NCBI GenBank assembly: GCA_021740905.1
Contig: JAIOYV010000013.1
Location: 1-64,000, forward strand
Direction: 5' to 3'
Source: Bacteroidales bacterium
Lineage (GTDB): Bacteria; Bacteroidota; Bacteroidia; Bacteroidales; M50B96
Length of the DNA stretch: 64,000 nt
The translations under genes and the position numbers were made by a program. Positions 1 through 28,775 of this stretch are shown here, piece by piece. Position 1 is the first letter of the stretch. Each line of letters begins with the position of its first letter. The notes beneath the pieces were generated by a model that had not been told where the DNA came from, ran no database searches, and worked only from the letters and a program-made list of their open reading frames with translations.

Positions 1-2003
1 GGCACGTGCCCAGCGATGCCGAATGGTACGAAATGGAAAACTATGTGGATAATACAGTGAACGACCCGGCAGCCATCAATTATCGGGGCACCGATATTCA
101 TCTTAAATTGATAGATGGCGGCAGCACTGGCTTAGACCTTATTTATAGTGGTGTCTACTATGCACCCAATGGAGCTTTCTTTGGAGGTGGCATAACAAAC
201 AGGTTTGGGGTTTATGCAACTTCAACAGAAAATTCGACCAAAACATGGATGCGTACCTTAGACGAAGGCCAAACAGGTATTAAGCGGTCATCCGATCCGA
301 AATCACTTGGGATTTCTGTCCGTTGTATCCAGGATGAAGGAGGTGCTCCGCCTTGTAGCCCGCTGCCAAGCCAGGCTAATGCAGGTGCCGATCAGTTAAA
401 TATCGTGGGCACTTCGACTGTCCTTAATGCAGTTTCGCCAAGTGTAGGCACCGGCCAATGGTCGATTGCAAGTGGTACTGGAGGTAGTTTCTCAAATTCG
501 GCTTCAAACACAAGCACGTTCAATGGAGTTGCAGGGGAAACGTATCAGTTGACCTGGACTGTTTCAAATAATTGTGGTAGTACTAGCGACCAGGTAGAAA
601 TCAGTTTCTATCTGTGCTCTCCAACACCAAGCCAGGCCAATGCAGGTGCTGACCAGTTAAATATTGTGGGCACTTCAACTGTTCTTAATGCACTTTCGCC
701 AAGTGTAGGCACCGGCCAATGGTCGATTGCAAGTGGTACTGGAGGTAGTTTCTCAAATTCGGCTTCAAACACAAGCACCTTCTTTGGTGTAGCCGGTGAA
801 ACATATCAGTTGACCTGGACTGTTTCAAATAATTGTGGTAGTACTAGCGACCAGGTAGAAATCAGCTTCTATCTCTGTTCGCCACAACCAAGCCAAGCCA
901 ATGCTGGCACCGATCAGTTGAATGTTGTAGGCACTTCGGTCACTTTGCTTGGCAATGTTCCAACTCAAGGAAACGGGCAGTGGTCGATTGCCAGTGGGAC
1001 TGGTGGTTATTTCTCCAACCCATTTTCAAACTCAAGTACCTTCAATGGAATAGCCGGGCAATCCTATCTCTTGACCTGGACTATTTCGACTACTTGCGGC
1101 AGCACGAGCGACTCGGTAGCAATCAGTTTCTACCTTTGTTCACCGCAACCTAATGCCAATGCAGGAGCCGACATTTTGAATATTCAGGTCGACTCTGTTG
1201 TGCTTGGGGCAAATATCCCTCCCTCGCCTGGTACAGGACTTTGGATTATTAATAGTGGGACCGGAGGAAGCTTCTCCGATCCAACTTCAAATACAAGTGT
1301 TTTTTATGGCACTTTGAACGAAAGCTACGAACTGGTCTGGACCGTGACTACAGCATGTGGGTCAGCCAGTGATATAGTAACAATAAGCTTCGTTTTCGCA
1401 TGTGGTTCTCCTTTGCTTGATACCCGTGACAACCAGGAGTACAATACCTTACAATTCGGCACCCAATGTTGGATGGCCAGTAGCCTGAACTATGGAACTT
1501 ATGTTCCGATATCAGCAGGGGCAAGTCAGGCCAACCTGACGGCCGAAAAATTTTGCTATGATAACCTGATACAAAATTGCGACACCTTTGGGGCAATGTA
1601 TTCGTGGGCAGAATTGATGAACTACACTACCCAGGCAGGGACACAAGGGCTATGCCCATCGGGTTGGCACGTGCCTACGGATTATGAGTGGTACATCCTT
1701 GAGAATTATCTCGATACTACTGTTATTTATGATCCAACAACACTGGGTTGGAGAGGGACTGATGTGGGCACCAAGCTAAGGCTTAATGGCAGTTCAGGCA
1801 TGAATTTAAGGTTAAGTGGACAGACGGTCAACACTCAATTTCTAAACCTGGGGGTTTGGGGCTACTATGCTACTTCAACAACATACCCTCTGGGTGGCCC
1901 TACAGGTCATATTGTGCGCAAACTCGAATCGTCCGAAAACAGGATCAAGCGTACGTATAATACCATTTCGTATGCATCGAATGTACGTTGTCTGAAAAAC
2001 TAA
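1..2003 (+). CDS. FISUMP surface protein with four tandem Ig/PKD-like repeats (5' end outside window)
   Basis: The open frame enters from the left edge: the first codons read HVPSDAEWY, the continuation of the GWHVP motif of a FISUMP (Fibrobacter succinogenes major paralogous, TIGR02145) domain, so the GTG at position 6 is not the real start. In order the visible part holds the C-terminal half of one FISUMP domain (to about base 340), four 87-residue Ig/PKD-like repeats beginning at the SQANAGADQ motif (bases 366-1409), and a complete second FISUMP domain (about base 1395 to the end) with CWMASSLNYG, GLCPSGWHVPTDYEW and a terminal VRCLKN. FISUMP proteins are abundant, probably extracellular proteins of unknown role. 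No catalytic residues or T9SS tail are visible. A paralogue follows 43 bases downstream, so the two were probably made by duplication. Confidence 0.85.
   Translation, partial: HVPSDAEWYEMENYVDNTVNDPAAINYRGTDIHLKLIDGGSTGLDLIYSGVYYAPNGAFFGGGITNRFGVYATSTENSTKTWMRTLDEGQTGIKRSSDPKSLGISVRCIQDEGGAPPCSPLPSQANAGADQLNIVGTSTVLNAVSPSVGTGQWSIASGTGGSFSNSASNTSTFNGVAGETYQLTWTVSNNCGSTSDQVEISFYLCSPTPSQANAGADQLNIVGTSTVLNALSPSVGTGQWSIASGTGGSFSNSASNTSTFFGVAGETYQLTWTVSNNCGSTSDQVEISFYLCSPQPSQANAGTDQLNVVGTSVTLLGNVPTQGNGQWSIASGTGGYFSNPFSNSSTFNGIAGQSYLLTWTISTTCGSTSDSVAISFYLCSPQPNANAGADILNIQVDSVVLGANIPPSPGTGLWIINSGTGGSFSDPTSNTSVFYGTLNESYELVWTVTTACGSASDIVTISFVFACGSPLLDTRDNQEYNTLQFGTQCWMASSLNYGTYVPISAGASQANLTAEKFCYDNLIQNCDTFGAMYSWAELMNYTTQAGTQGLCPSGWHVPTDYEWYILENYLDTTVIYDPTTLGWRGTDVGTKLRLNGSSGMNLRLSGQTVNTQFLNLGVWGYYATSTTYPLGGPTGHIVRKLESSENRIKRTYNTISYASNVRCLKN
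366..1409 (+). repeat. Four tandem 261-bp coding repeats
   Basis: Copies start at 366, 627, 888 and 1149, each 261 bases (87 codons), with the phase kept. Copies 1 and 2 share an identical 85-base block (433-517 and 694-778) that includes synonymous positions. Copies 3 and 4 have diverged. This points to recent duplication or gene conversion of the first two units. Confidence 0.9.
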
Positions 2004-2046: not shown

Positions 2047-5000
2047 ATGAAAAAGTATATCCTTCTGATTTTGTTTCTGGCCACACAAGTCGTTTTGTTG
2101 TCACAAACGCCTGATTTCATAAACTATCAGGCAATTGCCCGGAATGCATCAGGCGATATATTCTTCAATCACAATGTGTCTGTCCAAATTCGGATCCTTC
2201 AGGGTCCCGATTTGGCCAGCACAGTATATACCGAAAACTTCTATACCCAAAGCAATGAATTTGGTGTGATCCAATTTTCAATTGGTACGGGTGTGGTACA
2301 ATATGGTAATTTCAATTCAATCGATTGGTCGCAGGCCGGTTATTCAATTTGGATGGGGCTGGATGCCACAGGTGGAAACAATTTCAGACCCATGGGGACT
2401 GACCAATTCGTATCAGTGCCCTATGCTTTTTATGCTGAATCGAGTGGTACTTCGTTCCAGTATTTTGGCTTGTTAAGTTATTCTCAAAGCGAGATCGACA
2501 GCTTGATTGCGAATCCGGGCACTGTGGTTTACAACGTTACTACCTCTTGTGTGAATTTTTTCAACGGAGTAACTTGGACCTCCCTTTGCGGAGACCAAAT
2601 GTGTACGCCCATGCCCTCCCTAGCAAATGCCGGAACAGACCAGAACATTTTTGGTGTGATCACGAACCTTGCTGGAAGTTACCCTGACTTTGGGAATAAT
2701 GAAATTGGGATTTGGAGTATAATTTCAGGCTTGGGTGGTGTAATCAATGAACCGGGGAAACCAAATTCTGTTTTTTCAGGAATAACCGGGGAAACCTACC
2801 AATTAAAATGGACCATTAGTACAATATGCGGCTCAAGTTCCGATGTAGTTTCCATCGAGTTTTTAGCTTGTGATGATGGTAACCCTTGTACCAACGATTA
2901 TCTCACCAACGGCGTATGCCAAAACGAAATTATTGCAGTTACTGTAGCCAATGCCGGGCCTAATCAGCCTGGTGCTCTCAATCCGGTCAATCTTGAAGCC
3001 GACCCAGCCCTTATTGGATTTGGATATTGGTCTATCGTTAGTGGAACCGGAGGGTCGATTGGCGATTCGTTAGATTACCATTCAACTTTTGAAGGGATTG
3101 CAGGAACAACCTACAAACTTGTCTGGCATGTAGAACACCTGTGCGGCGCATCGAGCGATACGGTTGTCATTACGGTTGAATACCCCTTTGCTTGTGGGGA
3201 TAGTTTGATCGACATCCGCGACAATCAAACATACACTACCATTGAAATAAACGGGCATTGTTGGATGACTGAAAACCTAAATTATGGTGGCTTTGTCTCC
3301 TCGTCCCAGGGGCAATCGGATAACTCGATCCCCGAAAAATACTGTTATGGGAACAACCAGGCAAAATGTCTTACACAGGGAGGTCTTTACACCTGGAACG
3401 AGCTGATGCGATACAATACCTTTGAATATGCACAGGGCCTTTGTCCGAACGGCTGGCATGTGCCTACCGATTTGGAATGGTATGGGCTTGAGAATTTTGT
3501 CGACCCTTCAGTAAGCAACCCAACAGCAATTGGCATTCGCGGAACCGACGTAGGGACCAAATTGTTGATTGGCGGAAGCAGTGGCGTAGACATTGTTTAC
3601 AGCGGTACTTACTACCCACCCGACAATAAATTTTATGGTTCGGGCACCTTCAACAAGTTTGGAAATTATGCTACCTCTTCGGTAGAAGGGGGTTATTCCT
3701 GGATGCGTATATTCAGCGAATCGCAGTCAGGGATTGCGCGGTCAGCCGACTCCAAATCACTAGGCTATGCAGTACGTTGTATAAAAAATTATAGCTCTCA
3801 ACCCTGTGTGCCATTCCCAAGCCGGGCCAATGCGGGTCCCGACCAGCGCATAGATTCTACGGGTACGGTTACCCTATCGGCCACCAACCCGGCATTAGGA
3901 TCAGGGAAATGGACAGTAGCTTATGGCACGGGCGGAAGCTTTTCGAATGATACCTTGCCAAACAGTACATTTAATGGTACACCCGGGCAAAACTACCGGC
4001 TTGTCTGGACAGTATCTACGGTTTGCAGCAGTACAAGCGATACCATGTTTGTTTATGCGGCCCATCCTCCCTTCGAGAACGTAATAAAAACCAGATGGAA
4101 TTCTGCTTTGTACGACAACAACGGGAATAAGGAAATCATCGACCTTGAAGCCATTCCCAGACCCGTACAGGGAGGTCATGCTTATTCGTTTGCCAGTGGT
4201 GCAAAAGTGAATACCGGATTAAATTTTGGCGGTCTGGATTATTTCCAGTGGGAGTTCGATATTAAAAAATCGGCAGGGAATATTGCCTCTCTTGCACAAG
4301 TTGGAAGTGGAAATTCGAAGATTCAGTTTTGTTGGTGGTACGACGGATCCCTATATGTGCAAATAGGCACCCTATATGGCGGCACCAATTCGACCTTGTA
4401 CGACAGCTTGATCCACATAAAAGTAGTTTACGACGGTGTAATGCCCAACAATGCGGCAAAGCTGAAAATTTACATAAATGATGAATTACAAACGCTAAGT
4501 TTCTCCGGCAGTATTCCAAATTTCACACCCGCTATCGCAAGCAATTTTATTTTTGGTGCAGGGCCAAACGTATCGCCGGTCTTTAAATTTGCTAATTTCA
4601 AAAACATTCACCGGTATGGTGCATTGCTCAACTTCTATAAGTGCGACGAGCAAAAAGGAACAGTTTCTTTCGATTGCACCGGAGGTTCGGCTGGCACCAT
4701 AACAAATGCCCCGGCAGGCTTTCATTGCCAGGACAATGATTTTATTCCCTGGGCCGACCGATATGGGTATTCTGAAGATAATATACTCGTAGGACGCATT
4801 ATCCCAATTTCGGTGAACTCACCCGGAAATCATACTTCATTTGACATAAACGGACAAGTTCCAAGCTACTTAGGGCAGATTGGGGCAAATTTAGAAATTG
4901 TCGGAAATCCATGCATCAAAGGAAACGGTGTAAATACTTTCGTACAGTTCAATTTCACCGAGGTCGCAAACATTGCTTCAGTGGAAGTTCGTTATTTCAA

Positions 5001-6264
5001 TGGTTCGGCTTGGGTTACAGTAACCGATATAGCTTCTACCGGCACCAGTGTGCCTGGATTATGGCGCATTACAGGACCAAATTTCTTCTTGCTCGCCGAT
5101 GGAACGAATTATTTCAACAATAAAGTAAGTGCCTTGATATGCCGATCGTCAAGTGGCGAAGAAATTATCCATGCGAACTTTTCCGAAACCCGAGCAACCA
5201 AAGCATTTAACCGTGCCCGCCATACCCGCGACGGCGATGGTGTCTATATGAATTTTACACCTAGTCAATTTGTATCCGATGACAAGGCTTATCCTGTAGC
5301 CATAGTAGAAGGTTACGATTTATGGGAATACGATTTCGATTTAGGTACTTACATTGTTGTGGCTTACCATACCGATGGGACGCCTTTATTAACCGACGGT
5401 GATAGCTGGACCGACTATAGTTGGGTGTCAAACCAGCCACCCGCTTCGGGCACTGAGTTCCATAATGGGGCACCTTCGAAACTCCAGTTGGCCAGCAACC
5501 AGGATGTTTTGGATGCCGACCTCGATGGCGTATTTTCAACGAGTACAGCGACTCTTAAAAAGCTCTCTTTTACCGATATAAAACAAGCCAACCTGAACCC
5601 CTTATATTTCCAGTATGGAAATCGCAAGCTTAAAGAAATGGTACTGTATAGCCATGAACTAACAGGAGATGAATCGACCGAAGCAAATACTTTTTTCCGG
5701 GTAAAGGAAAAAGACAATTTTGTTTTTCACGGCGATAGCCACACAGCAGGCTTATTTCAAAAGGCCGGATGGAATTTCCCGAGCCAATACTTCCGTATGT
5801 ATGAAAATAGGTACCAGATGACAAATTTGGCTGTTTCCGGTTGGACAAGCGCACAACTTTTAGCCGATATAGGCAATATCACCGCGTTGTACGATCCTAC
5901 CAAAGACGACAATTATGCGATTATTCTTATAGGTGCAAATGATATTATGAACACCATAGCCTCGCCAAATCAACTGTACGTCAATTTACAGGAGATATGG
6001 GCAACTTGCCGGGCCTCAGGATTTTTTGTTGTAGCTGTAACCCTGTTGCCTCATACTGCCCAACAAGCAAATATGGATGCAATAAACATATTGATCAAAA
6101 GCGATCCCACCCTTTATGATCTGCTTTTGGACCTTACCTTAGACCCCGACATTGGAGTAAATGGAGCCGATCTGGGACCCTTTTATACTGGCGATCACAT
6201 TCACCTAAAAGAAGAGGGGGCCAGGAAAATAGCCGAAATGTTACATGCCCTGTTGCCTGAATGA
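2047..6264 (+). CDS. Secreted FISUMP protein with C-terminal SGNH/GDSL hydrolase domain
   Basis: 1405 residues. A signal peptide (about residues 1-19) is followed by the FINYQAIARN...VPYAFYAES N-terminal module common in Bacteroidota surface proteins (20-135), Ig/PKD-like domains of the same family as in the preceding gene (about 186-375), a FISUMP domain (about 381-582), another Ig-like domain (595-680), a region resembling a LamG/concanavalin-like fold (about 690-860), an unrecognised stretch, and an SGNH hydrolase (about 1225-1405). The hydrolase has all blocks: GDSH with Ser1231, the VSG glycine, GAND with Asn1298, and DHIH with Asp1383/His1386. SGNH enzymes remove acyl or acetyl groups from esters, so a surface deacetylase or esterase acting on polysaccharide is plausible, but the substrate is unknown. 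No T9SS tail is visible. The start is supported by the signal peptide directly after an AT-rich leader. Confidence 0.85.
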   Translation: MKKYILLILFLATQVVLLSQTPDFINYQAIARNASGDIFFNHNVSVQIRILQGPDLASTVYTENFYTQSNEFGVIQFSIGTGVVQYGNFNSIDWSQAGYSIWMGLDATGGNNFRPMGTDQFVSVPYAFYAESSGTSFQYFGLLSYSQSEIDSLIANPGTVVYNVTTSCVNFFNGVTWTSLCGDQMCTPMPSLANAGTDQNIFGVITNLAGSYPDFGNNEIGIWSIISGLGGVINEPGKPNSVFSGITGETYQLKWTISTICGSSSDVVSIEFLACDDGNPCTNDYLTNGVCQNEIIAVTVANAGPNQPGALNPVNLEADPALIGFGYWSIVSGTGGSIGDSLDYHSTFEGIAGTTYKLVWHVEHLCGASSDTVVITVEYPFACGDSLIDIRDNQTYTTIEINGHCWMTENLNYGGFVSSSQGQSDNSIPEKYCYGNNQAKCLTQGGLYTWNELMRYNTFEYAQGLCPNGWHVPTDLEWYGLENFVDPSVSNPTAIGIRGTDVGTKLLIGGSSGVDIVYSGTYYPPDNKFYGSGTFNKFGNYATSSVEGGYSWMRIFSESQSGIARSADSKSLGYAVRCIKNYSSQPCVPFPSRANAGPDQRIDSTGTVTLSATNPALGSGKWTVAYGTGGSFSNDTLPNSTFNGTPGQNYRLVWTVSTVCSSTSDTMFVYAAHPPFENVIKTRWNSALYDNNGNKEIIDLEAIPRPVQGGHAYSFASGAKVNTGLNFGGLDYFQWEFDIKKSAGNIASLAQVGSGNSKIQFCWWYDGSLYVQIGTLYGGTNSTLYDSLIHIKVVYDGVMPNNAAKLKIYINDELQTLSFSGSIPNFTPAIASNFIFGAGPNVSPVFKFANFKNIHRYGALLNFYKCDEQKGTVSFDCTGGSAGTITNAPAGFHCQDNDFIPWADRYGYSEDNILVGRIIPISVNSPGNHTSFDINGQVPSYLGQIGANLEIVGNPCIKGNGVNTFVQFNFTEVANIASVEVRYFNGSAWVTVTDIASTGTSVPGLWRITGPNFFLLADGTNYFNNKVSALICRSSSGEEIIHANFSETRATKAFNRARHTRDGDGVYMNFTPSQFVSDDKAYPVAIVEGYDLWEYDFDLGTYIVVAYHTDGTPLLTDGDSWTDYSWVSNQPPASGTEFHNGAPSKLQLASNQDVLDADLDGVFSTSTATLKKLSFTDIKQANLNPLYFQYGNRKLKEMVLYSHELTGDESTEANTFFRVKEKDNFVFHGDSHTAGLFQKAGWNFPSQYFRMYENRYQMTNLAVSGWTSAQLLADIGNITALYDPTKDDNYAIILIGANDIMNTIASPNQLYVNLQEIWATCRASGFFVVAVTLLPHTAQQANMDAINILIKSDPTLYDLLLDLTLDPDIGVNGADLGPFYTGDHIHLKEEGARKIAEMLHALLPE

Positions 6265-6565: not shown

Positions 6566-6581
6566 TTTATTGCAGATTAGC

Positions 6582-7049
6582 ATGATAAAGATTGATGAAA
6601 TAAAAGGCATAGTTGCAGACCAAATGGAAGGGACAGATTTATTCCTTGTTGATTTGCAAATTTCGACATCGAATAAGATTTCGGTTGTGATTGATAGCTG
6701 GGGTTCTGTTTCGATTGACGACTGTGTGTCTATTAGCAGAAAAATTGAAGGTTCGCTCGATAGGGACAAAGAAGATTTTGCACTGGAAGTGTCATCGGCA
6801 GGCCTTGATCATCCCTTTATGGTTTTCGACCAATATAAAAAAAATATTGACCGGAATGTGCAGGTTATAACCCTCGATGGCGTAAAGACGACAGGAAAAT
6901 TGCTGACTGTAACCAATGAGGGGATTGAATTGGAGTATGAAAAGAAAGTAAAAGTGGAAGGGAAGAAGAAGAAAGAAATTCGTGTTGAAAAAAGCCCTTT
7001 CCTGTTTAGTAATATTAAAGCGACAAAAGTTGAAATTTCATTTAAGTAA
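6582..7049 (+). CDS. rimP: Ribosome maturation factor RimP
   Basis: 155 residues from the ATG at 6582; an in-frame TTG 12 bases upstream is less likely. RimP helps 30S subunit assembly. The N-terminal alpha/beta domain (about 1-75) carries the SIDDCVSISRKIEG and FALEVSSAGLDHPF family motifs. The C-terminal SH3-like domain contains a lysine-rich insertion (KKVKVEGKKKKEIRVEK), common in Bacteroidota versions. It is followed 17 bases later by nusA and then infB, the conserved operon order, and this context supports the call. Confidence 0.93.
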   Translation: MIKIDEIKGIVADQMEGTDLFLVDLQISTSNKISVVIDSWGSVSIDDCVSISRKIEGSLDRDKEDFALEVSSAGLDHPFMVFDQYKKNIDRNVQVITLDGVKTTGKLLTVTNEGIELEYEKKVKVEGKKKKEIRVEKSPFLFSNIKATKVEISFK

Positions 7050-7066
7050 AGTCAAAATTTGAAACA

Positions 7067-8305
7067 ATGGAAAACCTGAATTTAATTGATACCTTTTCTG
7101 AGTTTAAAGAGCTTAAAAATATCGATAGGGCTACCATGATGCGTGTCCTAGAGGATGTATTCAGGGGCTTGTTAGTGAAAAAATTCGGAACCGACGAGAA
7201 TTTTGACATCATTATCAATATCGACAAGGGAGACTTCGAGATTTGGCGCAACCGCGAAGTGGTAGAAGACGATGAGATAGAAGACGAGAACCTGCAGATA
7301 CGATTGTCGGAAGCTCTGAAAGTAGATTCGGATTACGAAGCCGGCGAAGATTTTACCGATGAAGTTAAATTAGCCGACTTTGGCCGCAGGGCTATTTTAT
7401 CCTTGCGTCAAAATCTTACCTCGCGGATCCTCGAACTTGAGAAAGACCACGTATACATAAAGTATAGCGACCGTGTTGGCGACATTATCACTGGCGAAGT
7501 GTACCAGGTTTGGAAACGCGAAATCCTTGTTCTCGACGACGAGGGCAACGAACTCATTCTTCCTAAGACCGAGCAAATCCCTACCGATTATTTCCGAAAG
7601 GGTGACGCATTACGTGCTGTAGTCGTGAAAGTGGATATGCGAAACAATAGCCCACTCATTATACTTTCGCGTACTTCACCCGTTTTTCTTGAGCGTTTGT
7701 TCGAAAACGAAGTACCCGAAATTTTCGATGGCCTTATCACCATCAAGAAAATTGTACGGATGCCAGGCGAGCGCGCCAAAGTAGCCGTCGAATCTTACGA
7801 CGAGCGCATTGACCCGGTGGGTGCTTGTGTTGGGATGAAGGGATCGCGTATCCATGGCATTGTCCGTGAGTTGAAGAACGAGAATATCGATGTAATCAAT
7901 TATACAAGCAATATACAATTGTATATTACAAGGGCATTGAACCCTGCAAAAATAAGTTCGATAGAGGTACATGCCGATACGATGAAAGCCGAAGTGTACC
8001 TTAAACCCGACCAGGTTTCTCTGGCAATCGGGAAAGGCGGCCTGAACATTAAACTGGCAGGACAACTTACGGGCTACGAAATTGATGTATTTAGGGATGT
8101 AGAAGGTGAAGACGATGAAGATGTTGACATTGAAGAATTCTCTGATGAAATTGAAAGCTGGATCATTGATGAATTAAAGGCAATTGGCTGTGATACGGCC
8201 AGGAGTGTGTTGGATTTATCAGTTGAGGATTTAGTAAAAAGGACAGACCTTGAGGAAGAAACGATTCTGGAGTTGGTCAAAATTTTCAAGTCAGAATTTG
8301 AATAA
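7067..8305 (+). CDS. nusA: Transcription termination/antitermination factor NusA
   Basis: 412 residues. The RNA-polymerase-binding N-terminal domain (about 1-130) is followed by an S1 domain (about 137-200, GDIITGEVYQVW), and two KH domains (about 205-345) with GACVGMKGSRI and the second KH loop VSLAIGKGG. The C-terminus has an acidic linker (GEDDEDVDIEEF) and a helix-hairpin-helix-like segment (IDELKAIGCDTARSVLDLS, about 365-412). The short C-terminus is typical of this phylum. NusA binds the elongating polymerase and nascent RNA and modulates pausing and termination. It lies second in rimP-nusA-infB. Confidence 0.95.
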   Translation: MENLNLIDTFSEFKELKNIDRATMMRVLEDVFRGLLVKKFGTDENFDIIINIDKGDFEIWRNREVVEDDEIEDENLQIRLSEALKVDSDYEAGEDFTDEVKLADFGRRAILSLRQNLTSRILELEKDHVYIKYSDRVGDIITGEVYQVWKREILVLDDEGNELILPKTEQIPTDYFRKGDALRAVVVKVDMRNNSPLIILSRTSPVFLERLFENEVPEIFDGLITIKKIVRMPGERAKVAVESYDERIDPVGACVGMKGSRIHGIVRELKNENIDVINYTSNIQLYITRALNPAKISSIEVHADTMKAEVYLKPDQVSLAIGKGGLNIKLAGQLTGYEIDVFRDVEGEDDEDVDIEEFSDEIESWIIDELKAIGCDTARSVLDLSVEDLVKRTDLEEETILELVKIFKSEFE

Positions 8306-8509
8306 TTTTTTATTCACAGCATTTTTACTCACTTTTGAAACTTTATTGTGGGATTACAAAGAAACCCTATTGGGAAGTTAGTTCCCCGATCCGTTGTACG
8401 GATAGGTAAACGGTTATTTGAAAGACTATTTAAGGATAAAAAAAACGAGTTGTCGTTGGGAGCAATACCCGCAACAAAATTAAACGGCAGCTCAGAACGA
8501 AAGTTATAT

Positions 8510-11500
8510 ATGGCAACAGGCGGTAAAGGGACAAGATTAAACAGGATTGCACGGGATCTTAACGTGGGCATTGTAACTATTGTCGAGTTTTTGCATAAAA
8601 AAGGACTTGATATAGATGCCGACCCAAACAGTAAAGTGCCTGCCGAATACTATGATCTTCTGGTAAAAGAGTATAGTTCCGACAGTGAAATAAAGAAGGA
8701 ATCGGAAAAACTTATGCGCAGCATACGCATGAGAAAACAAACCCTTACCCTCGAATCGCAAGAGGCTGAAGAAGAATACGAAGAAGAGGAAGTTGAAGAA
8801 ACTCCTGTTGAAGAGCCAAAGAAAGCCCCCATCGCGGCAGCTCCCCAAAAAGAAACAATAACAAAAAAACCGGTCGTAGAAAAGGTCGAACAACCTGAGC
8901 CTAAAGCCGAAGAATCGAAGAAAACAATTCAAACACCAGCCATTGTTGAAGAAAAGCCAGCTTCGACAGAAGAAACCAAGGAAACGGTAAAGGCCCAGGT
9001 GGTTGAAGAGTCCATGCATGTGGAAAAGGTGGATGCCCTTATTGCGAAAAAGAAATCGAAACCCTCAACAAAAGAAACTGTAAAAGAGGATTCTGCCCCA
9101 GACGATACGAAAAAACCAAAAACAGTCGATGAGACAATATCGTCCGAGGCTATTTCCGGTGCAATAATAAAGGAAGAAGAAAAACCTATCCAAGTTGTCA
9201 AACCGGCCGAAGAAGCTATATCCGAGACTGTAATTCAGGAAATTAAAGTTCCTGATCCCGTGGAAAAAGAAAAAGTAGAAAAACCTGCAAGCCCCATTGC
9301 CGAAACTGAAATATCCACTACTGGGGAAGCAGTGCCTGAAACTACAATACCTGAAGCAAAAGAAAAAGTTACACCTGAGCAAGAATCGCTACCTGAACCA
9401 AAAGAAGAAACTGAACTTGTGGAGGAAGAAGTTGCTGAAGGAGAATTTGATGTCGATGATGAAGATATTGTAGTTGATGAAGAATCGCTACCTGGCGAGT
9501 TTAAAGTAGTTGGTAAAATTGATCTATCCACTATAAACCAGAAAACCAGGCCATCGAAAAAAAGCAGGAAAGAAAAGGAAAAAGAAAGGGTAGAGAAGGA
9601 AAGAGCCAAGAAAGATGCACAATCAGAATGGCGCAAAAAAATCCAGAAAATCCATTCTCCAGAGCCTGCAGTTGGTGCTAAAAAAGAGCATGACAAGAAG
9701 AAATTGGTCAAACGGCCTGTTGAGAAGTATGAGCCTGAAACGGGCAACGTAATTAAAACAGAATTCAAAAAACTTTCCGGCCCAACCGTAGTAGGGAAAA
9801 TTGAACTTCCTGCTAAAGAAAAGAAAAAAGCCAAAATAAAACCAGTTGCGTCCTCAACCGATAATGAAAGCCAAATCAGCAAAAAGCGGAGAAAGCGGAT
9901 AAGGAAAGACCGTGTTGATATTGACAAAAAGGATGCTCCAGCAGCAAGCGATAAGAAATTCCCCCTTTCAAAAGCAAAACCAAAAAAGAAACCACTCAGA
10001 ACTGAAGTATCAGAAGAAGATGTCCAGAAGCAAATTAAAGATACACTGGCTCGTCTGACATCCAAAGGGAAATCGAAAGGTGCAAAACACCGCCGTACCA
10101 AAAGAGATGATGTAAGGGCACGTCACCTTGAGGACATGGAAAAGGAGGAACTGGAAAAGAATATCCTCAAAGTTTCCGAATTTGTTTCTGTGAATGAGCT
10201 GGCCACTATGATGGATATACCTGTCAACAAAGTGATCGCAGCTTGCATGAGTCTGGGCTTATTTGTTTCCATTAACCAGAGGCTCGATGCTGAAACAATG
10301 ACCCTGGTGGCCGAAGAATTTGGTTATGAGGTGCAGTTTACTACTGTTGATCTCGAAGAAAATTTTGTTGAAGAAGATAATGAAGAAGACCTGATTCCTC
10401 GTCCGCCTATTGTAACCGTAATGGGACACGTCGATCATGGTAAAACTTCACTGCTCGATTATATCCGTAAAGCCAATGTAATTGCTGGTGAGGCTGGGGG
10501 GATAACCCAGCATATTGGTGCCTACACGGTTGAACTGTCCAGTGGAAAAAATATTACTTTCCTCGATACTCCTGGTCACGAAGCTTTTACTGCCATGCGT
10601 GCAAGGGGTGCCAAAGTAACGGACTTCGCCATTGTTGTAGTGGCTGCCGACGATAATGTGATGCCACAAACTGTTGAGGCCATCAACCACGCTTCGGCTG
10701 CCGGTGTCCCTATCATATTTGCCATCAACAAAGTGGACAAGCCTGGGGCAAACCCAGAAAAGATTAAAGAGTCTTTAGCCAGCATGAATTACCTGGTCGA
10801 AGATTGGGGTGGAAAATATCAATCGCAGGAAATATCGGCAAAGTTCGGCACCAACGTGGATGATTTGCTGGAGAAAGTCCTTTTAGAAGCAGAAATGCTC
10901 GATTTGAAAGGCAATCCGAATAAAGCTGCCCATGGGACTATCATTGAATCTTCTTTAGATAAAGGGAGAGGTTATGTGGCCACTATCCTGGTGCAATCAG
11001 GAACCCTGAAGGTGGGCGATATTATCCTTGCCGGAAGCTATACCGGAAACGTCAAGGCCATGTTCAACGAGCGGGGCAATAAAATCTTAACGGCTGGACC
11101 TTCAGTTCCGGCGCTTGTACTCGGATTAAACGGGGCCCCACAGGCCGGCGATACCTTCCATGTGATGAGCAGCGAACGGGATGCCCGCGAAATTGCCAAC
11201 AAACGTGAGCAATTGATGCGTGAGCAAAGTCTCCGTACACAAAAACATATTACCCTCGACGAAATTGGACGCCGTCTTGCATTAGGCGATTTCCACGAAA
11301 TAAATATCATTGTGAAAGGCGACGTGGATGGTTCTATCGAAGCACTTTCCGACTCGCTGATAAAACTGTCGACCGATTCGGTACAAGTAAATATCAAACA
11401 CAAAGCCGTAGGGCAGATATCCGAATCGGACATTATGCTTGCCATGGCTTCCAATGCCATTGTTGTCGGTTTCCAGGTAAGGCCCTCGCTGAGTGCCCGT

Positions 11501-11905
11501 AAGCTGGCCGAAAAGGAAGAAATCGATATTCGTCTCTATTCCATTATATACGATGCCATTAATGAAATGCGCGACGCGATGGAAGGCATGTTATCGCCCG
11601 AATTGAAAGAGGAAATCGTGGCCACTCTCGAAGTGCGTGAGGTTTTCAAGATCACCAAAGTGGGCACCATTGCCGGCTGTATCGTGAAAGAAGGAAAGAT
11701 AAACCGGAACACCAGAATTCGTCTCATACGCGAAGGCATTGTAGTGTACACCGGCGAACTTGGCTCGTTAAAGCGTTTTAAAGATGACGTGAAAGAAGTG
11801 ACCATAGGCTACGAATGTGGGTTGAACATTACCAATTTCAACGATATCAAAGAAGGCGATATCATTGAAGGTTTCACAGAAGTAGAAGTAAAGAAAAAGC
11901 TATAA
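8510..11905 (+). CDS. infB: Translation initiation factor IF-2
   Basis: 1131 residues from ATG 8510 ([20 protein letters not shown]), which matches the conserved IF-2 N-terminal start. The frame stays open back to a GTG at 8348, but those 54 codons do not look like IF-2. An N-terminal IF2_N subdomain (3-55) is followed by a long charged Glu/Lys/Pro linker (about 90-520), a second IF2_N segment (about 545-600), then the GTPase: G1 GHVDHGKT (639-646), G2 [11 protein letters not shown]3 DTPGH (686-690), G4 NKVD (740-743) and G5 SAKFG, followed by domains II, III and IV. IF-2 brings initiator tRNA to the 30S subunit and promotes subunit joining. It is the last gene of the operon and is followed by a hairpin terminator. 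Confidence 0.96.
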
Positions 11906-12051: not shown

Positions 12052-14016
12052 TCAAAATCGTGATATAGGTGCAGATGGATGAAAGAAAATATCCTCAAAA
12101 TGAACATTCATTTCCTCGTCAATCTTCAACAAAATCGACTGATAAGGTTTGAATACCAAATCTATTTCTTTGCCTTTTCCATTCAAATTTATGCTGATGT
12201 TTAGGGTGCTGTCTTTTTCGCAAAACGATTGCCCGTAAGCCAATGGGTATTTCAATTCTTGCGAAAGGGGATGTGAGAAAAAGAGTAGATATTGCCCATC
12301 AACTTCCCTGCACCAATAATCAAGTGGAGGGTCGCACTGGATAAAAGATGCTGGAATATCAATATCTGAAAGGTTCTGACCTACATTTTCAAGGCTTATT
12401 AATTTGTTCAGCAAATCGCTATAATCATTGCTTTTCAAATAGCCTGGTTCTTTCGGAAGCTTTTTCAAACAAACGGGGAATCCTTTGCCTGCTAGGTCAA
12501 GAATTGCATGTAAGGCTTCACTGTCAAGATAATCCACATTCATATATAAAAATGAAAAAGCTGCATCGCCACATACGAGCTTGCCATTTTCCAACTTCGA
12601 TTTCTTAAGAAAACCCTGGTTGATCCAAAGCGGGGCATAGCCATTCAATTCATCAGCCGGTTTGATGTATCGCAACTCATACGCACCCCATGCCCAGGGA
12701 AGTTGCAACTCTTCTGGGTATGCACCCTGAACCCATGCATCTTCGAGCGGAAGATAAACGGCGGCCTGCGAAAATGCTTTTCCCATTTTCATGGCCGATG
12801 ATACCTTTTGCAGATAATTGTTGAAGGCAGGAAGCTCGTTGGCAAAATGGCTGTCTGACCCTACTTGCACCGATGCGTAAAAAATGTTGCTGTCTTTTTC
12901 ACCATTGAAGGGCATTCCGTGCCAGAATATTTGGTTCACACCATGGGCAAACAAGGCATCGGCCAGGAGTTTTAGATCGGCCATTTGTTCCATTTTTTGA
13001 TAAGGACCGGGTCCTGGCCAACGCTTCCAGCCATACAAACAGGTAAAGGTTTCGGAAGATACTTCAGTTTTTGAAGAGAGTGCTGCAGCCGATGCCGGTA
13101 TCCTTGAAAATTCCGGCTCAAATAAAATGGCCTCGGACTCGGGCACATCAACCGCCGCAAATGCATCGAGCAAATCGGCTGGAGCACCACCGCATTGGGC
13201 ACGGGAAAAGGAATTGTGCCGGTGGCTTGTTTCAGTGAATGGCTTGTAGAACTCCTCAATCACAAAATCCGAAACCAGTTTCATATAGTCGTAATTGACC
13301 TGGGCATTGGCAGAATCGTACAATTTCTCCATAAAATTTGTTATGTCGTAGCCATAGCGTTGCTCAAAAACCGAATCGAACCCTGCTGTCCAAATCCTTT
13401 GTGTTTCCACCTCCCACGAATCGCAAAACCAGGCAGAGGGTTTGCCTTCGAGAGCTGGGTCAAGCCCGGCGAAGATTGAATCAGCATAATGTTGAAAAGC
13501 TTTTTTGTCGAGGTGGTTCAATACACGGCCTTTCACGGGGTGTTCCCACGAAAACCTGATCCATTGGCTACACTCACTGTCGCCCCATAATCTTGTGGCA
13601 TCCTGATCATCTACAAAGCTGCCCCCAAAAGGCCACAGACTTCCGAAAGTAAAATCGCAACTCAAGCCAATCTCGGTGGCATACGATTTGGCAAACAGGA
13701 CGGCCTCAGCCCATGCTTTGCCTAAAAACTTGTATCGTGTCTTGGCTGTATCTCCACAGTAAGGATATACCCAGGCAATCTCGACCCCGCCAAAATTATT
13801 CTTTTTCAACCAATCGAGTTGGTACACTATGTCGTCCTTCTCGATTTCATCGGCAAACCACCACCAACGGGTATAGGGTTTGGAATCAGGGTAAAAATAG
13901 TATTGATCGGCCATCTTTTCATCAGAAGGGTCCTGACAATCAACAAAAATGAAAAGAGAAAATCCAATAGCTGCCAAAATAATTGCCGCGCTTCTTTTAA
14001 AAACCCACTTTTTCAT
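12052..14016 (-). CDS. GH106-like (alpha-L-rhamnosidase superfamily) exported glycoside hydrolase
   Basis: 654 residues from the ATG whose complement lies at 14014-14016; the frame is open 15 codons further, but this Met is followed by a Lys-rich hydrophobic export signal. KPYTRWWWFADEIEKDDI and the NNFGGVEIAWVYP segment resemble the conserved start of the GH106 catalytic barrel, and FCDSWEVETQRIWTAGF with RYGYDI resembles the DSWE...RRGYDL region of that family. The N-terminal hydrophobic stretch ends in VDC (Cys27), which could be lipidated although Asp before the Cys is atypical. The family cleaves rhamnosyl or related sugars from plant or microbial polysaccharide. The exact substrate is unknown. 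No SusC/SusD pair is near, so it is not in a classic polysaccharide utilisation locus. It converges with infB. Confidence 0.7.
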   Translation of the reverse strand: MKKWVFKRSAAIILAAIGFSLFIFVDCQDPSDEKMADQYYFYPDSKPYTRWWWFADEIEKDDIVYQLDWLKKNNFGGVEIAWVYPYCGDTAKTRYKFLGKAWAEAVLFAKSYATEIGLSCDFTFGSLWPFGGSFVDDQDATRLWGDSECSQWIRFSWEHPVKGRVLNHLDKKAFQHYADSIFAGLDPALEGKPSAWFCDSWEVETQRIWTAGFDSVFEQRYGYDITNFMEKLYDSANAQVNYDYMKLVSDFVIEEFYKPFTETSHRHNSFSRAQCGGAPADLLDAFAAVDVPESEAILFEPEFSRIPASAAALSSKTEVSSETFTCLYGWKRWPGPGPYQKMEQMADLKLLADALFAHGVNQIFWHGMPFNGEKDSNIFYASVQVGSDSHFANELPAFNNYLQKVSSAMKMGKAFSQAAVYLPLEDAWVQGAYPEELQLPWAWGAYELRYIKPADELNGYAPLWINQGFLKKSKLENGKLVCGDAAFSFLYMNVDYLDSEALHAILDLAGKGFPVCLKKLPKEPGYLKSNDYSDLLNKLISLENVGQNLSDIDIPASFIQCDPPLDYWCREVDGQYLLFFSHPLSQELKYPLAYGQSFCEKDSTLNISINLNGKGKEIDLVFKPYQSILLKIDEEMNVHFEDIFFHPSAPISRF

Positions 14017-14113
14017 AGTTTTTAGTTTGATAAGAATTGTACCAAAAGTAGGAAAAATCACATCATTTCAGGCAAAAAGACAATTTTACACAAGATAAGA
14101 AAAGGCTTTTTTT

Positions 14114-24094: not shown

Positions 24095-27000
24095 CTAAAA
24101 GAACGACGACAGAAAATCCATCTGCCTGATATTTTCGAGCTGTTGCTTTTTGTTTACATCGCGGTTGGCCAGGGCTGTTTCAGTGAAATAGGTATGTTTT
24201 TCGATAAACCCGATTTGTCTTTTCAACCATTCATCTACCGACTTTATGCGTTTGCGTTCGTACAGTTCCATAAAAAGATCGCGCGAAATAGGGATGAAAT
24301 CGCGCCTGCCCAGATAATCGAGGTCAGCATCGCACATTATCATTTCGAGTTTGTTTTTAGGACTCGGTGGAACTTTGGTGGTCATTATCAAATTGCTTAT
24401 AAGCTCGATCTGCTCTCTGGTGTATTGAAACCGGGGTAGTATTTCACGGGCAAGCTTTACTCCATAAATCTCATGGTTATCGTATCCAATGGTGAAGCCA
24501 CTATCGTGAAACAAGGCAGCCGTTTTCAAAAGAATAATTTCTTCGTTGCTGATCCCTTCGGCTTGTGCTATTAATTCGGCTTGCATGCATACATCAATGG
24601 TATGTTGCAAATTATGATAGTAGAGATTTTTGGGCAATTCCTTCTCAAGCTTTTCAAGCATGTAATCGTAGAGGTCTTTGTACCGGATTTCAAATAAGTG
24701 GAAACGCAATTTACTGTTTGGGATTGTACCGTATGCATCTTCTGCAAAACCTTTTTTGATTGAATTTACGATATACATTTTTAGTTCGGCACCGGCTTTT
24801 TCTCGAATAGTGCCATGATATTCGCAATCGAAATAGTCTTTGGCTAAGTTGAAAGTTGTTTCCGAGATATTGATCTTGCCAACTTTGCCTTGCGACTCCA
24901 TGCGGCTAGCAGAGTTTACGGTTACTCCCCAAATATCGTATGAATACCGCTTTGTGCCGATCACCCCCGCAATGGCCGGTCCTGAGTGGATTCCGATACG
25001 CAGGCCCCAGTTCAAATGGCTGGTTTTCTCATTGTCGAACTCGAATTCCTTCATATACTCCCTGATTTCGAGTGCTGCCAGTATTACCTCAATGGGATTG
25101 GTCCTGTCTTTTTCAGGGATTCCACCGGCACACATATAGCCATCGCCAATGGTTTTTATTTTTTCGATCCGGTACTTTCCCACAATAGTATCGAAACGAA
25201 GGAACAATTCTTCCAGCTTGTGAACCAAAAGAGAGGGGTCGATAAGTTCTGCAATCTCGGTAAAGCCTTGTATGTCGGTAAACAAAACACTTACAAGGTC
25301 GAATTTGTGGATCGAAGCTTTGCCTTTTATTTTCAGTTCATCAGCAATTTGCTGCGGAAGCATGTTCACAAGAAGGTCTTCGGCACGTTCAATTTCTTTC
25401 AGCAATTCATCGGTACGTTCCTTAATAATTTTTTCAAGTTTGTTTTTCTCCTTTGCAAATTGATAACTACGGTACCGGAAAAAGATTATCAGGAAAACTA
25501 TCAGAAAAATACCATAAACAATATAGGCGATAATGGTTTGATAGAAGGGAGCCAGAATCGTAAATTCAATTTTAGCTTCCTTGTATTCTGCACCGTATAC
25601 ATTTTTGGCCTTCACGCAAAAGACATACTTACCGGGCCTTAGAAAATTATACTCTTTTCGCGTAAGGTAACTCCAGTCCGACCATTTATCATCAAAATTC
25701 TCAAGAAAAATTTTATACAACATGGTTTCGTTGCCTAGATAAGCAGGACAAACGTAGTCGAACTGCATTGAATTAAAATGTGGCTCTATTTTTATATTAT
25801 TCTTTTTGATGCTATAATCGATCATTGGATTTAATGGGATTATCGAGTCATTGCCAAGAACTATCCTTTTAATCAATATTGTATGCTCAGTGCTATCGGT
25901 TTGCAAAATATCCCTGTCGAACCGGATCAGTCCATCGGCCCCACCAATCCACAGTATCCTGGCATCTTCCACATAAAATGTCTCCACGGTGAAATCGCTG
26001 ATTTTATTAAAAGGGGCAGTAATCAAATTATAAGTCTCTGTTGCCTCATCGAAAAAAGCTACCATGGTCTCTTTCTTAAATGTTTTGTTCGACCCTCTCG
26101 ACATAATAAGTGATTTTGTCTCTGATTCGTAAATAGGAAACACCCAGCGATCTTTTGCTGTTGAGCTTATCCCAATCAAAGTATCGTCGTAAAACTTGGA
26201 GCCTTGGGGGTCGAACCGATACAAATGGCCCGATTCAGTCGAAAACAACATCCCCATTCTGGTATTATAAACATCAATCCATCCATGATCGGGGGGCAGC
26301 ATGGAGTTTTCACCAAAATGTGTAACCTTCATGGACTGGTTGTATTTCTTCGGCGAGTTTATTTGAAAAACCCCATACGTATTTGAACCTAACCAGATAT
26401 CGCCATTTTCGGCCAATGCCATAGTGCGTATTGAGCCTTTAATCTTGGAAATTGGCCCCAGGTTTCGGAAAATTCCATTTTCGTATTGCAAAGCAGAAAA
26501 TCCAAACAAGCCGCCAATAAATAGTAAATCGGGATGTTCTGGTGAAAACAATGCACAACGTAATTGTTGATCATACACAAGTTTGGCTTCTGCCCCATCT
26601 ATCGAATAGATACCATTGTCAGTTATGGCATACATTTTATCTTTGAATTCGATAAATTGATACACCATAGCCGACACATCTTTTACTTGGGAGAATGATT
26701 TAATGTTAGAATTAAAATCTATTACCTCCTCAGATGTATTATGCTTCAACATAAAAGCACCCGAAAGAGTACCCGCATATAGTTGGCCTTTATGCCTGAC
26801 AACCGACAAAACAGCACCTTGCAAGCCAGTTAAAAAACCAAAATAAGTAAAATGACTGGGGTACTCAATTTTCGAAATCCCATTTCTAAGCCCGGCCCAA
26901 ATATTGCCCGATTTATCGTTAAATAAACAATATATGCTATTGTCGTTCAGTCCATTATTCTTGTTCAAGTGAATAATTACCTGCCCCTTTTTGTCAAGGA

Positions 27001-27841
27001 TTATGATTCCCTTGTCATTGGTGCCAAAAGCAATGGTGCTATCTTTTAAAACAACGCCACGGGCATAATTAAAGCGACTCAAATATTGGTCTGCCTGGGT
27101 GTGATATTGCGTGACTTCGTTAAAATCATACTCCAAAAAGTAGGGCAGGCTGTTCAGTTTAATTAAAATAGAATTACCATAAGAAAGGATATCCTGAATA
27201 TCCTTCCCCTTAAAATATTCTCCCGAAGGCAATTGGACTATCCGATTGTTTTCAAATTTCGACAATCCCAATTTCGAATGGTTTATAAAAAGGCTCTCAC
27301 CTGTGGAAAAAACAGTAAGTGGTGAATGATTGGAATCGAGCAATTCAATTACATCGTTGTGGTAATAATACAATTCCTCGTTGGTTTCGAAAAAAACATC
27401 TTTGCCATAGGAAACTACATTAAATATAGCATCGAAATTGGTAGGTTTCCAGAACTTATCTTTTAATGAGAAAAAAGAAGTAAGCCCTGTGCTGTCGCGA
27501 TCCAGATAACCAAATTCGTTGAATGCCCCCACATAAACACGTCCATCGTCGCAACTAGTGAGGTAAGGCCAACCTTGAATTTCTATCAATCGCCAGGAAA
27601 GATCGTCGTATTCCAGGATACCACTCATATTGCCAAAATACATCACTCCTTTTGCGTCTTGGGTAACCGAAAAATTCTGAGGATCAGTGCCATATTCTTT
27701 CGAAGGGTAGTTCCTAATATAGGGTAAGCCTAACTCGTATTCTTGTGCCCTCAGGCTATCGGTATAAAAAAAAAGAAGATATATTAGTAGAAAAACAATA
27801 AATGAATCAAATTTTAATTTATTTTTACAGAAATTGCTCAT
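24095..27841 (-). CDS. Periplasmic propeller sensor fused to class III adenylate cyclase and HD domain
   Basis: 1248 residues from the Met at 27841; the frame is open 47 codons further upstream, but this Met begins a clear signal/anchor. Layout: Reg_prop-type beta-propeller (about 35-660, e.g. NGLNDNSIYCLFNDKSGNIW), a Y_Y_Y domain (about 695-765), one membrane span (about 768-790), a coiled-coil with NMLPQQIADEL (826-836), a class III cyclase domain (about 850-1035) and an HD domain (about 1070-1215). The cyclase has both metal Asp residues (FTDIQGF Asp856; TIGDGYM Asp900), the adenine-selecting Lys896/Asp969 pair (not the Glu/Cys of guanylate cyclases), and Asn976/Arg980. The HD motifs are His1080, His1112-Asp1113 and a downstream CDADLDYLG. 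In hybrid two-component sensors the same front end is joined to a kinase. Here it would control a cyclic nucleotide. It is divergent from a stress protein gene. Confidence 0.9.
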   Translation of the reverse strand: MSNFCKNKLKFDSFIVFLLIYLLFFYTDSLRAQEYELGLPYIRNYPSKEYGTDPQNFSVTQDAKGVMYFGNMSGILEYDDLSWRLIEIQGWPYLTSCDDGRVYVGAFNEFGYLDRDSTGLTSFFSLKDKFWKPTNFDAIFNVVSYGKDVFFETNEELYYYHNDVIELLDSNHSPLTVFSTGESLFINHSKLGLSKFENNRIVQLPSGEYFKGKDIQDILSYGNSILIKLNSLPYFLEYDFNEVTQYHTQADQYLSRFNYARGVVLKDSTIAFGTNDKGIIILDKKGQVIIHLNKNNGLNDNSIYCLFNDKSGNIWAGLRNGISKIEYPSHFTYFGFLTGLQGAVLSVVRHKGQLYAGTLSGAFMLKHNTSEEVIDFNSNIKSFSQVKDVSAMVYQFIEFKDKMYAITDNGIYSIDGAEAKLVYDQQLRCALFSPEHPDLLFIGGLFGFSALQYENGIFRNLGPISKIKGSIRTMALAENGDIWLGSNTYGVFQINSPKKYNQSMKVTHFGENSMLPPDHGWIDVYNTRMGMLFSTESGHLYRFDPQGSKFYDDTLIGISSTAKDRWVFPIYESETKSLIMSRGSNKTFKKETMVAFFDEATETYNLITAPFNKISDFTVETFYVEDARILWIGGADGLIRFDRDILQTDSTEHTILIKRIVLGNDSIIPLNPMIDYSIKKNNIKIEPHFNSMQFDYVCPAYLGNETMLYKIFLENFDDKWSDWSYLTRKEYNFLRPGKYVFCVKAKNVYGAEYKEAKIEFTILAPFYQTIIAYIVYGIFLIVFLIIFFRYRSYQFAKEKNKLEKIIKERTDELLKEIERAEDLLVNMLPQQIADELKIKGKASIHKFDLVSVLFTDIQGFTEIAELIDPSLLVHKLEELFLRFDTIVGKYRIEKIKTIGDGYMCAGGIPEKDRTNPIEVILAALEIREYMKEFEFDNEKTSHLNWGLRIGIHSGPAIAGVIGTKRYSYDIWGVTVNSASRMESQGKVGKINISETTFNLAKDYFDCEYHGTIREKAGAELKMYIVNSIKKGFAEDAYGTIPNSKLRFHLFEIRYKDLYDYMLEKLEKELPKNLYYHNLQHTIDVCMQAELIAQAEGISNEEIILLKTAALFHDSGFTIGYDNHEIYGVKLAREILPRFQYTREQIELISNLIMTTKVPPSPKNKLEMIMCDADLDYLGRRDFIPISRDLFMELYERKRIKSVDEWLKRQIGFIEKHTYFTETALANRDVNKKQQLENIRQMDFLSSFF

Positions 27842-27917
27842 TAAAAATAGTATGTTTTGTAAACGTAAAAAAGACTGATAAATATAAATATTATAATTCG
27901 ACATAAACCAATTGACT

Positions 27918-28775
27918 ATGAAAGATGCTAAAAAAACTATTATCGTGCCTTGCGACTTTACCGAAGTGTGCCAATATGCCACCGATTATGCTGTAAGGAT
28001 CTCCCGCTTATTGGGGACAGACTTCACTTTGGTGCATATTGTTGACGAAGGTGGATTTTTTGCGAATGAAGAAAAAAGGAAAAAAGCGGTTGAAGCAGCC
28101 ACCAAAAAACTGGAGAAAATTGCCGACAGAACTTATGAGGAACACAAAGAAAGGCCCAAAATAATTGCCAGGATCGGGAATATTTATTCAACCATAAACG
28201 AAATTGCCGACGAACTTGAAGCCCGAATGGTATTGATGGGCATACATGAATTTAAGGGGATGCAAAAAATTACAGGAAGCCATGCACTAAAAGTAATGGC
28301 CGGATCGAAAATCCCCTATATTGCTATTCCTGGGGCTTATGTGTACAGGGCCGACAACGATATTGTATTCCCTGTCGACCATAAGGTTGAGAATAAAGAG
28401 AAACTGGTATGGGCTAACTATATGGCCAAGACCTTCGACTCGAAGATTCACATAATTACGGCCAACCATAGCGATGAACTTCTGAAGAAAAAAATCAATG
28501 CAAACCTCATTTTTGCCAAAAAATATTTGGACGAAAAAGGCATCAAATATGAGATTACCACTGCGGAAAAAGGAGTGAACTTTGCCGAGGCTGTAGTTAA
28601 ATTTGCCACAGACATGAACACGAACCTTATCCTGATTATGATAACCAAAGAGATTGGCTTTCAAGACTTCCTGCTTGGTGCCGACGAGCAAAAGATAATT
28701 TTCAACGATGGCAAGATTTCAGTTATGTGTGTGAACCCACGGACAGATTTACGTAAGTCGGGAGGCTTTAATTAG
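27918..28775 (+). CDS. Tandem-domain universal stress protein
   Basis: 285 residues from ATG 27918 (a TTG six bases earlier is in frame). It consists of two Usp folds, about 5-145 (KKTIIVPCDFTEVCQYATDYAVRI start, MGIHEFKGM and TGSHALKVMAGSKIP loop) and about 150-283 (DNDIVFPVDHKVENKEKLVWA, LILIMITKEIGFQDFLLGADEQ). Usp proteins bind nucleotides or dimerise during stress. Some mycobacterial ones bind cAMP. The gene is divergent from the cyclase-HD gene with only 76 bases between their starts, so a shared control region is likely. Whether this protein responds to the cyclase product is a hypothesis. Confidence 0.85.
   Translation: MKDAKKTIIVPCDFTEVCQYATDYAVRISRLLGTDFTLVHIVDEGGFFANEEKRKKAVEAATKKLEKIADRTYEEHKERPKIIARIGNIYSTINEIADELEARMVLMGIHEFKGMQKITGSHALKVMAGSKIPYIAIPGAYVYRADNDIVFPVDHKVENKEKLVWANYMAKTFDSKIHIITANHSDELLKKKINANLIFAKKYLDEKGIKYEITTAEKGVNFAEAVVKFATDMNTNLILIMITKEIGFQDFLLGADEQKIIFNDGKISVMCVNPRTDLRKSGGFN

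Follow-up and report, generated by a model that had tools for sequence, protein, structure and literature searches.

A C-terminal module ending in an SGNH domain is common to a FISUMP protein and a tail-fibre-like protein of one Bacteroidales genome

Introduction

Phage receptor-binding proteins (RBPs) that end in an SGNH domain are among the closest described counterparts of the protein considered here, a 1405-residue product of a single open reading frame (ORF) in a Bacteroidales bacterium (assembly GCA_021740905.1) that joins a FISUMP domain to a C-terminal SGNH hydrolase domain. The gene lies at 2047..6264 on the plus strand of the window, the whole stretch of 64,000 nucleotides that was analysed (contig JAIOYV010000013.1, positions 1 to 64,000). 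SGNH-domain prophage RBPs have been reported to show p-nitrophenyl acetate esterase activity, and G7C gp63.1 is described as a lipopolysaccharide O-deacetylase (PMC13123978). The SGNH tailspike of phage Aristophanes has been described as a structural polysaccharide deacetylase (PMC8471582). Among bacterial proteins, the Bdellovibrio mosaic adhesive trimers (MATs) are reported to be chimeric fibres that the host itself encodes and whose tips are phage-like or of the C-type-lectin kind (PMC10769870), and the idea of a host-encoded chimeric fibre therefore has a precedent; the main text of that paper makes no mention of SGNH or GDSL. On the FISUMP side, the C-terminal domain of Legionella Lcl (Lcl-CTD) is reported to bind sulphated glycosaminoglycans (PMC11162425), and Fib_succ_major domains are among the listed targets of diversity-generating retroelements (DGRs), where they are described as similar to DUF1566 (PMC4159848, PMC8143477).

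The window protein resembles each of these systems in part. With phage SGNH RBPs and tailspike deacetylases (G7C gp63.1, Aristophanes gp41, Klebsiella prophage RBPs) it has in common a C-terminal SGNH domain on a fibre-like protein, and a homologous tip is carried by a protein with PF22337 repeats on another contig of its genome (C86). However, the window protein is encoded on the host chromosome, has a signal-like N-terminus and no virion context, and gave no sequence match to INPHARED phage records; it is thus like the phage proteins at its tip without being one of them. It agrees with FISUMP/Fib_succ_major proteins in having a FISUMP domain above cut-off, a signal-like start and Ig-like repeats, but differs in that its FISUMP domain is internal and its tip is SGNH. 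Unlike Legionella Lcl, it has no collagen-like region and carries multiple other domains together with an enzyme tip. Its N-terminal domain is weakly similar to that of the Bdellovibrio MATs, yet scores well short of membership in that family. The new point, and a more interesting one than the pairing of FISUMP with SGNH, is that a single module is found both on a surface protein of the host and on a protein that resembles a phage tail fibre.

The same module ends a host protein and a tail-fibre-like protein

Residues 674-1405 of the window protein (4066..6261, plus strand) aligned by blastp with residues 736-1469 of the C86 protein over the full module length (39.7% identity, 542 bits, E 5.8e-172). 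The C86 protein is the product of a 1469-residue ORF (L037:4080-8489, minus strand) that begins with Phage_fiber_rpt (PF22337, 85.6 bits), carries host-type SprB repeats mid-protein and has the SGNH-ended module at its C-terminus. It matched PHROG tail-fibre families, and the DNA of its gene holds three 99-nucleotide direct repeats. Because amino acid identity is 39.7% and no significant DNA similarity was found between the two copies over the module length, we judge the copies to be old relative to each other. In the window protein homology begins just after an Ig-like repeat, and in the C86 protein just after the SprB repeats; the joint therefore coincides with a domain boundary in both, which is the position that a swap of tips at such a boundary would leave.

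The C86 gene belongs to a prophage-like element at the end of its contig (L037:1414-10780), made up of a tRNA-Gln gene, a tyrosine integrase, the tail-fibre-like protein and an endolysin-like ORF. The Phage_integrase ORF lies about 1.2 kb from the fibre gene, and its open frame begins inside the tRNA-Gln gene; tRNA genes are a usual site of prophages. On the other side of the fibre gene is a 168-residue ORF with a match to phrog_873 "endolysin" (2.5e-35). From these features the locus is best described as prophage-like.

Within the module, three parts can be distinguished. Residues ~721-836 (part of a ConA/Laminin_G_3-like stretch at 4207..4644, plus strand) gave tblastn alignments to L039, L040 and L043 (E between 1.9e-11 and 2.6e-9), and Pfam assigned Laminin_G_3 (PF13385, ConA-like) to L040 and L043 and Laminin_G_3 also to L041, L040 and L041 being host-type enzymes. 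A carbohydrate-binding-type domain had been proposed for the window protein from its sequence, and this alignment speaks for it, although Pfam made no direct call there. The middle part (4645..5706, plus strand) belongs to no known family and is the best conserved, with 0.41-0.60 identity per 40 residues (904-1143) versus 0.33-0.38 in the blocks of the SGNH domain that follows. The nearest relative of the ConA-like part elsewhere (G010) adjoins endolysin- and holin-like ORFs.

The module is rare. No full-length relative was found in GTDB contigs, in the order sample (392 genomes besides our own, 3 of which had the ConA stretch only) or in the phylum sample (395 genomes with our own included, 1 other having the ConA stretch only). 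Since so rare a module occurs twice in one genome, on a host and on a tail-fibre-like protein, the simplest reading is that it has been exchanged between these two protein types. Traffic from host to phage is plausible too, because of the host-type SprB repeats inside the C86 fibre. Our preferred reading, to which we give a probability of roughly 0.55, is that the window protein is a host surface adhesin whose glycan-binding O-deacetylase tip is common to a phage receptor-binding fibre and has been swapped as a cassette.

The SGNH domain of the window protein retains its catalytic residues

The SGNH/GDSL hydrolase domain (residues 1227-1393; 5725..6225, plus strand) was recognized by PF13472 (46.1 bits, cut-off 32.9) and by PF00657 (30.3 bits, cut-off 23.6). 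The catalytic positions are S1231 (VFHGDSHTAGL), N1298 (ILIGANDIMNT), and D1383 and H1386 (TGDHIHLK), and the block II glycine G1265 is also in place, so that the classical Ser-Gly-Asn-His set plus the Asp is complete. The original prediction is confirmed: the four residues that it named are intact, and the FISUMP and SGNH domains both exceed their curated cut-offs within one 1405-residue frame. A chance match or a mis-called ORF was ruled out by the E-values together with the exact catalytic residues. Elsewhere in this genome PF13472, searched as a single profile, matched only one weak place, on contig C1. A single-sequence model of residues 1064-1405 reached a pLDDT of only 33.5 and was uninformative on the structure of the tip.

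These residues bear on the idea that the tip is purely adhesive, the SGNH fold serving attachment or biofilm formation as a binding scaffold in which residues are kept while catalysis is not needed. The C86 copy lacks the block III Asn though the module as a whole is conserved, and the middle domain is better conserved than the SGNH blocks, both of which fit such a role. However, Ser, Gly, Asn, Asp and His are all kept in the window copy, which would not be expected by drift, and we regard a purely adhesive tip as unlikely.

SGNH is not a regular partner of FISUMP

We scanned 74 other FISUMP ORFs with Pfam and found no SGNH family in any of them. The set consisted of 63 ORFs in one alignment (A5), 8 in a separate scan and 3 more (one set aside earlier and two further viral ones). 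Alignment A5 contained 38 of the 41 ORFs from 40 regions and 25 of the 38 IMG/VR loci, three frames longer than 2200 residues having been set aside; the 40 regions came from the ~150 best FISUMP rows of the order sample and were picked chiefly by the length of their frames. The sample leans to strong matches. The frames of L117 and L122 and the viral L068, L079 and L080 (by coordinates repeats of L067, L077 and L078) lay outside the scan, and L094, L100 and L106 yielded no ORF by motif. For the 63 aligned ORFs the Pfam result covers 25 of the 33 families, and all 63 were screened for SGNH motif order too; this gave four candidates, none of which was SGNH when rescanned with Pfam. FISUMP plus SGNH as a recurring architecture was rejected on this count (0/74), and no paper linking the two was found in the open-access literature.

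Enzymes do occur beside FISUMP, and it would not be right to call the domain free of enzyme partners either: a protein kinase was present in 3/63 ORFs, a caspase in 3/63, and an M43 peptidase in 1/63 and in 2/8 of the separate scan. Fusions to caspase or protein kinase are found among the A5 members (e.g. L124:3466-5100), and the M43 peptidase in viral contigs. The original prediction had named a pairing unique to this genome as a sign against its inference about FISUMP in general; across everything searched the pairing was indeed unique, and this counts against that inference. SGNH thus does not appear to be a regular FISUMP partner. Because the same module also ends the C86 tail-fibre-like protein, which is encoded in this genome too and has no FISUMP, the unit to explain is the 732-residue module rather than FISUMP plus SGNH.

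FISUMP models as a C-type-lectin-like domain

The FISUMP domain of the window protein (residues 386-581; 3202..3789, plus strand) was identified by TIGR02145 (97.3 bits, cut-off 41.65) and PF09603 (79.2 bits, cut-off 33.9). A model built from 26 sequences (2 from the window and 24 from IMG/VR loci) had a pLDDT of 91.9. The solved structure nearest to this model in VIA-align was Lcl-CTD (8q4e; Z 8.9 over 97 residues at 2.3 Å, 21% identity). Below it ranked C-type lectin domains, TaqVP (a DGR variable protein, Z 7.5) and the Bdellovibrio fibre tip Bd2740 (8oks, Z 7.3), and nearly all top rows were C-type-lectin-like. Foldseek returned no match at E<=0.001 (best E 0.25), and its first 15 rows were all C-type-lectin-like. 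FISUMP therefore models as a C-type-lectin-like domain. A ligand-binding role is plausible and well motivated, because the domain that comes closest to the model binds glycosaminoglycans, though it is not new as an idea. The proposal that FISUMP works in a polymer-binding or polymer-trimming context survives in part: the lectin-like model and the intact SGNH residues agree with it for this protein, but the pairing is not general.

FISUMP was present in 305/393 genomes of the order sample, with 36 matches in our own genome, and Lcl_C (PF07603) matched 8/63 FISUMP ORFs. The domain lay within five residues of the protein end in 20/38 viral FISUMP ORFs, and a FISUMP half-domain 47% identical to that of the window occurs in a 735-kb uncultured phage record (LR756501.1:653726-654013). 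Action of a DGR on FISUMP was considered and rejected, as no template/variable-like repeat pair with FISUMP loci was found and blastn matches at other loci were weak (65-80% identity). A reverse transcriptase with IGNLTSQ and YVDD motifs is encoded on contig C141 (L132:4132-5397), with a 62-nucleotide repeat (84% identical) just upstream. These motifs are of the DGR type.

Architecture of the protein and its surroundings

Read by eye, the translation begins with a signal-peptide-like segment, MKKYILLILFLATQVVLLSQ (2047..2106, plus strand), in which no lipobox was seen. The domain at 2074..2403 (plus strand) resembles the Bdellovibrio MAT N-terminal domain (NF053851) at 25.9 bits (E 7.3e-6), below the cut-off of 60, and none of the six MAT-N-like matches in this genome exceeded the curated cut-off. 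Another protein of the genome (L049:888-3215, contig C66) combines a MAT-N-like start and repeated DNDNDPxNELQTIS segments with a terminal Kelch propeller, that is, another tip on a fibre-like stalk. Ig/PKD-like repeats flank FISUMP by eye, two at 2614..3180 and a third at 3814..4062 (both plus strand), the first two with a pattern common with the repeats of the ORF upstream, which match K319L-like_PKD (PF22352, 31.1 bits). The Ig-like domains of the original prediction are visible in this sense, although Pfam placed no Ig family above its own cut-off in the protein itself. Pfam also gave no match in the window protein to the type IX secretion system sorting domains Por_Secre_tail or CHU_C, the C-terminus being SGNH.

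Upstream, at 6..2003 (plus strand), lies a further FISUMP and Ig-repeat protein truncated by the contig start. The frame at C64:1-4435 breaks off within this protein's FISUMP motif as well (GWHVPSDA / VPSDAEWYEME), and the two contigs may abut. Downstream, the gene adjoins rimP, nusA and infB (6570..11905, plus strand), a chromosomal housekeeping neighbourhood in which domain annotation recognized no phage genes, and this supports its reading as a host protein. Further on are a GH106 alpha-L-rhamnosidase-like protein (12052-14061, minus strand) and a Reg_prop / Y_Y_Y sensor protein with C-terminal guanylate cyclase and HD domains (24095-27982, minus strand), a pairing that to our knowledge is uncommon. 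A promoter scan gave 18 sites against 11.0 expected (standard deviation 2.7) and was not used as evidence. Taken together, the best reading of these features is that the window protein is probably a surface adhesin, encoded on the chromosome of a Bacteroidota bacterium and exported.

The surroundings also bear on a plainer account, in which the protein is an ordinary secreted polysaccharide esterase that trims polymers and bears carbohydrate-binding and Ig-like modules, for example for nutritional de-acetylation of plant or microbial glycans, and the likeness to C86 reflects capture of a host module by a phage. The intact SGNH residues, the ConA-like relatives in GH20 and PNGase-F-like host proteins and the GH106 gene 6 kb downstream on the opposite strand are in its favour, as is the host-to-phage flow that the SprB repeats make plausible. 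Against this, there is no full-length host homologue in either the order or the phylum sample, the gene is followed by rimP-nusA-infB and has no operon of carbohydrate-active enzymes (CAZymes) around it, and the FISUMP proteins here appear adhesin-like rather than CAZyme-like. We consider this account possible but doubtful.

Discussion

We favour a host adhesin with a tip exchanged with a phage fibre. In such a protein export would be followed by display, the stalk (the MAT-N-like domain and Ig-like repeats) and FISUMP keeping it at or close to the cell surface and binding a ligand. The ConA-like and FISUMP domains would bind a surface or extracellular polysaccharide, from which the SGNH domain, by analogy with phage SGNH RBPs, would remove O-acetyl groups. 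The tip of about 730 residues (ConA-like lectin, middle domain and SGNH esterase) would be a cassette that phage fibre and host adhesin have exchanged.

Several observations weigh against this reading. The GC content and codon use of the module are not clearly different from the remaining gene, and give no sign of recent import. Full-length relatives of the module numbered zero in INPHARED phages and also zero in IMG/VR, the latter searched with peptide patterns, and pattern scans miss diverged relatives; two IMG/VR matches to a DNA pattern of the module were dismissed as chance. Evidence that the module descends from phages therefore comes from one locus, C86, together with the G010 ConA stretch, and other relatives of the ConA-like part are GH20, PNGase-F-like and similar ordinary proteins of the host kind. 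At C86 itself no capsid or terminase gene was seen near the element, because only 2.3 kb of the contig (60,800 bases) follow the fibre gene. In addition, S1360 of the C86 copy aligns to N1298, which places a Ser at the block III Asn position, and the two modules may for this reason differ in activity.

A bolder version is that the bacterium displays a captured phage-fibre tip, either deacetylating or occupying the glycan that the phage uses (receptor editing against superinfection) or adhering to kin or prey; we hold this to be improbable.

If the exchange of tips is real, the same lectin-esterase tip is present within one genome on a prophage-like element's tail-fibre-like protein and on a host surface protein. 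The trading of tips between host adhesins and phage receptor-binding proteins, and the action of the host copy on a phage receptor, would then become testable. For the FISUMP family, which is very common but unexplained, the model would place the domain in the C-type-lectin-like group.

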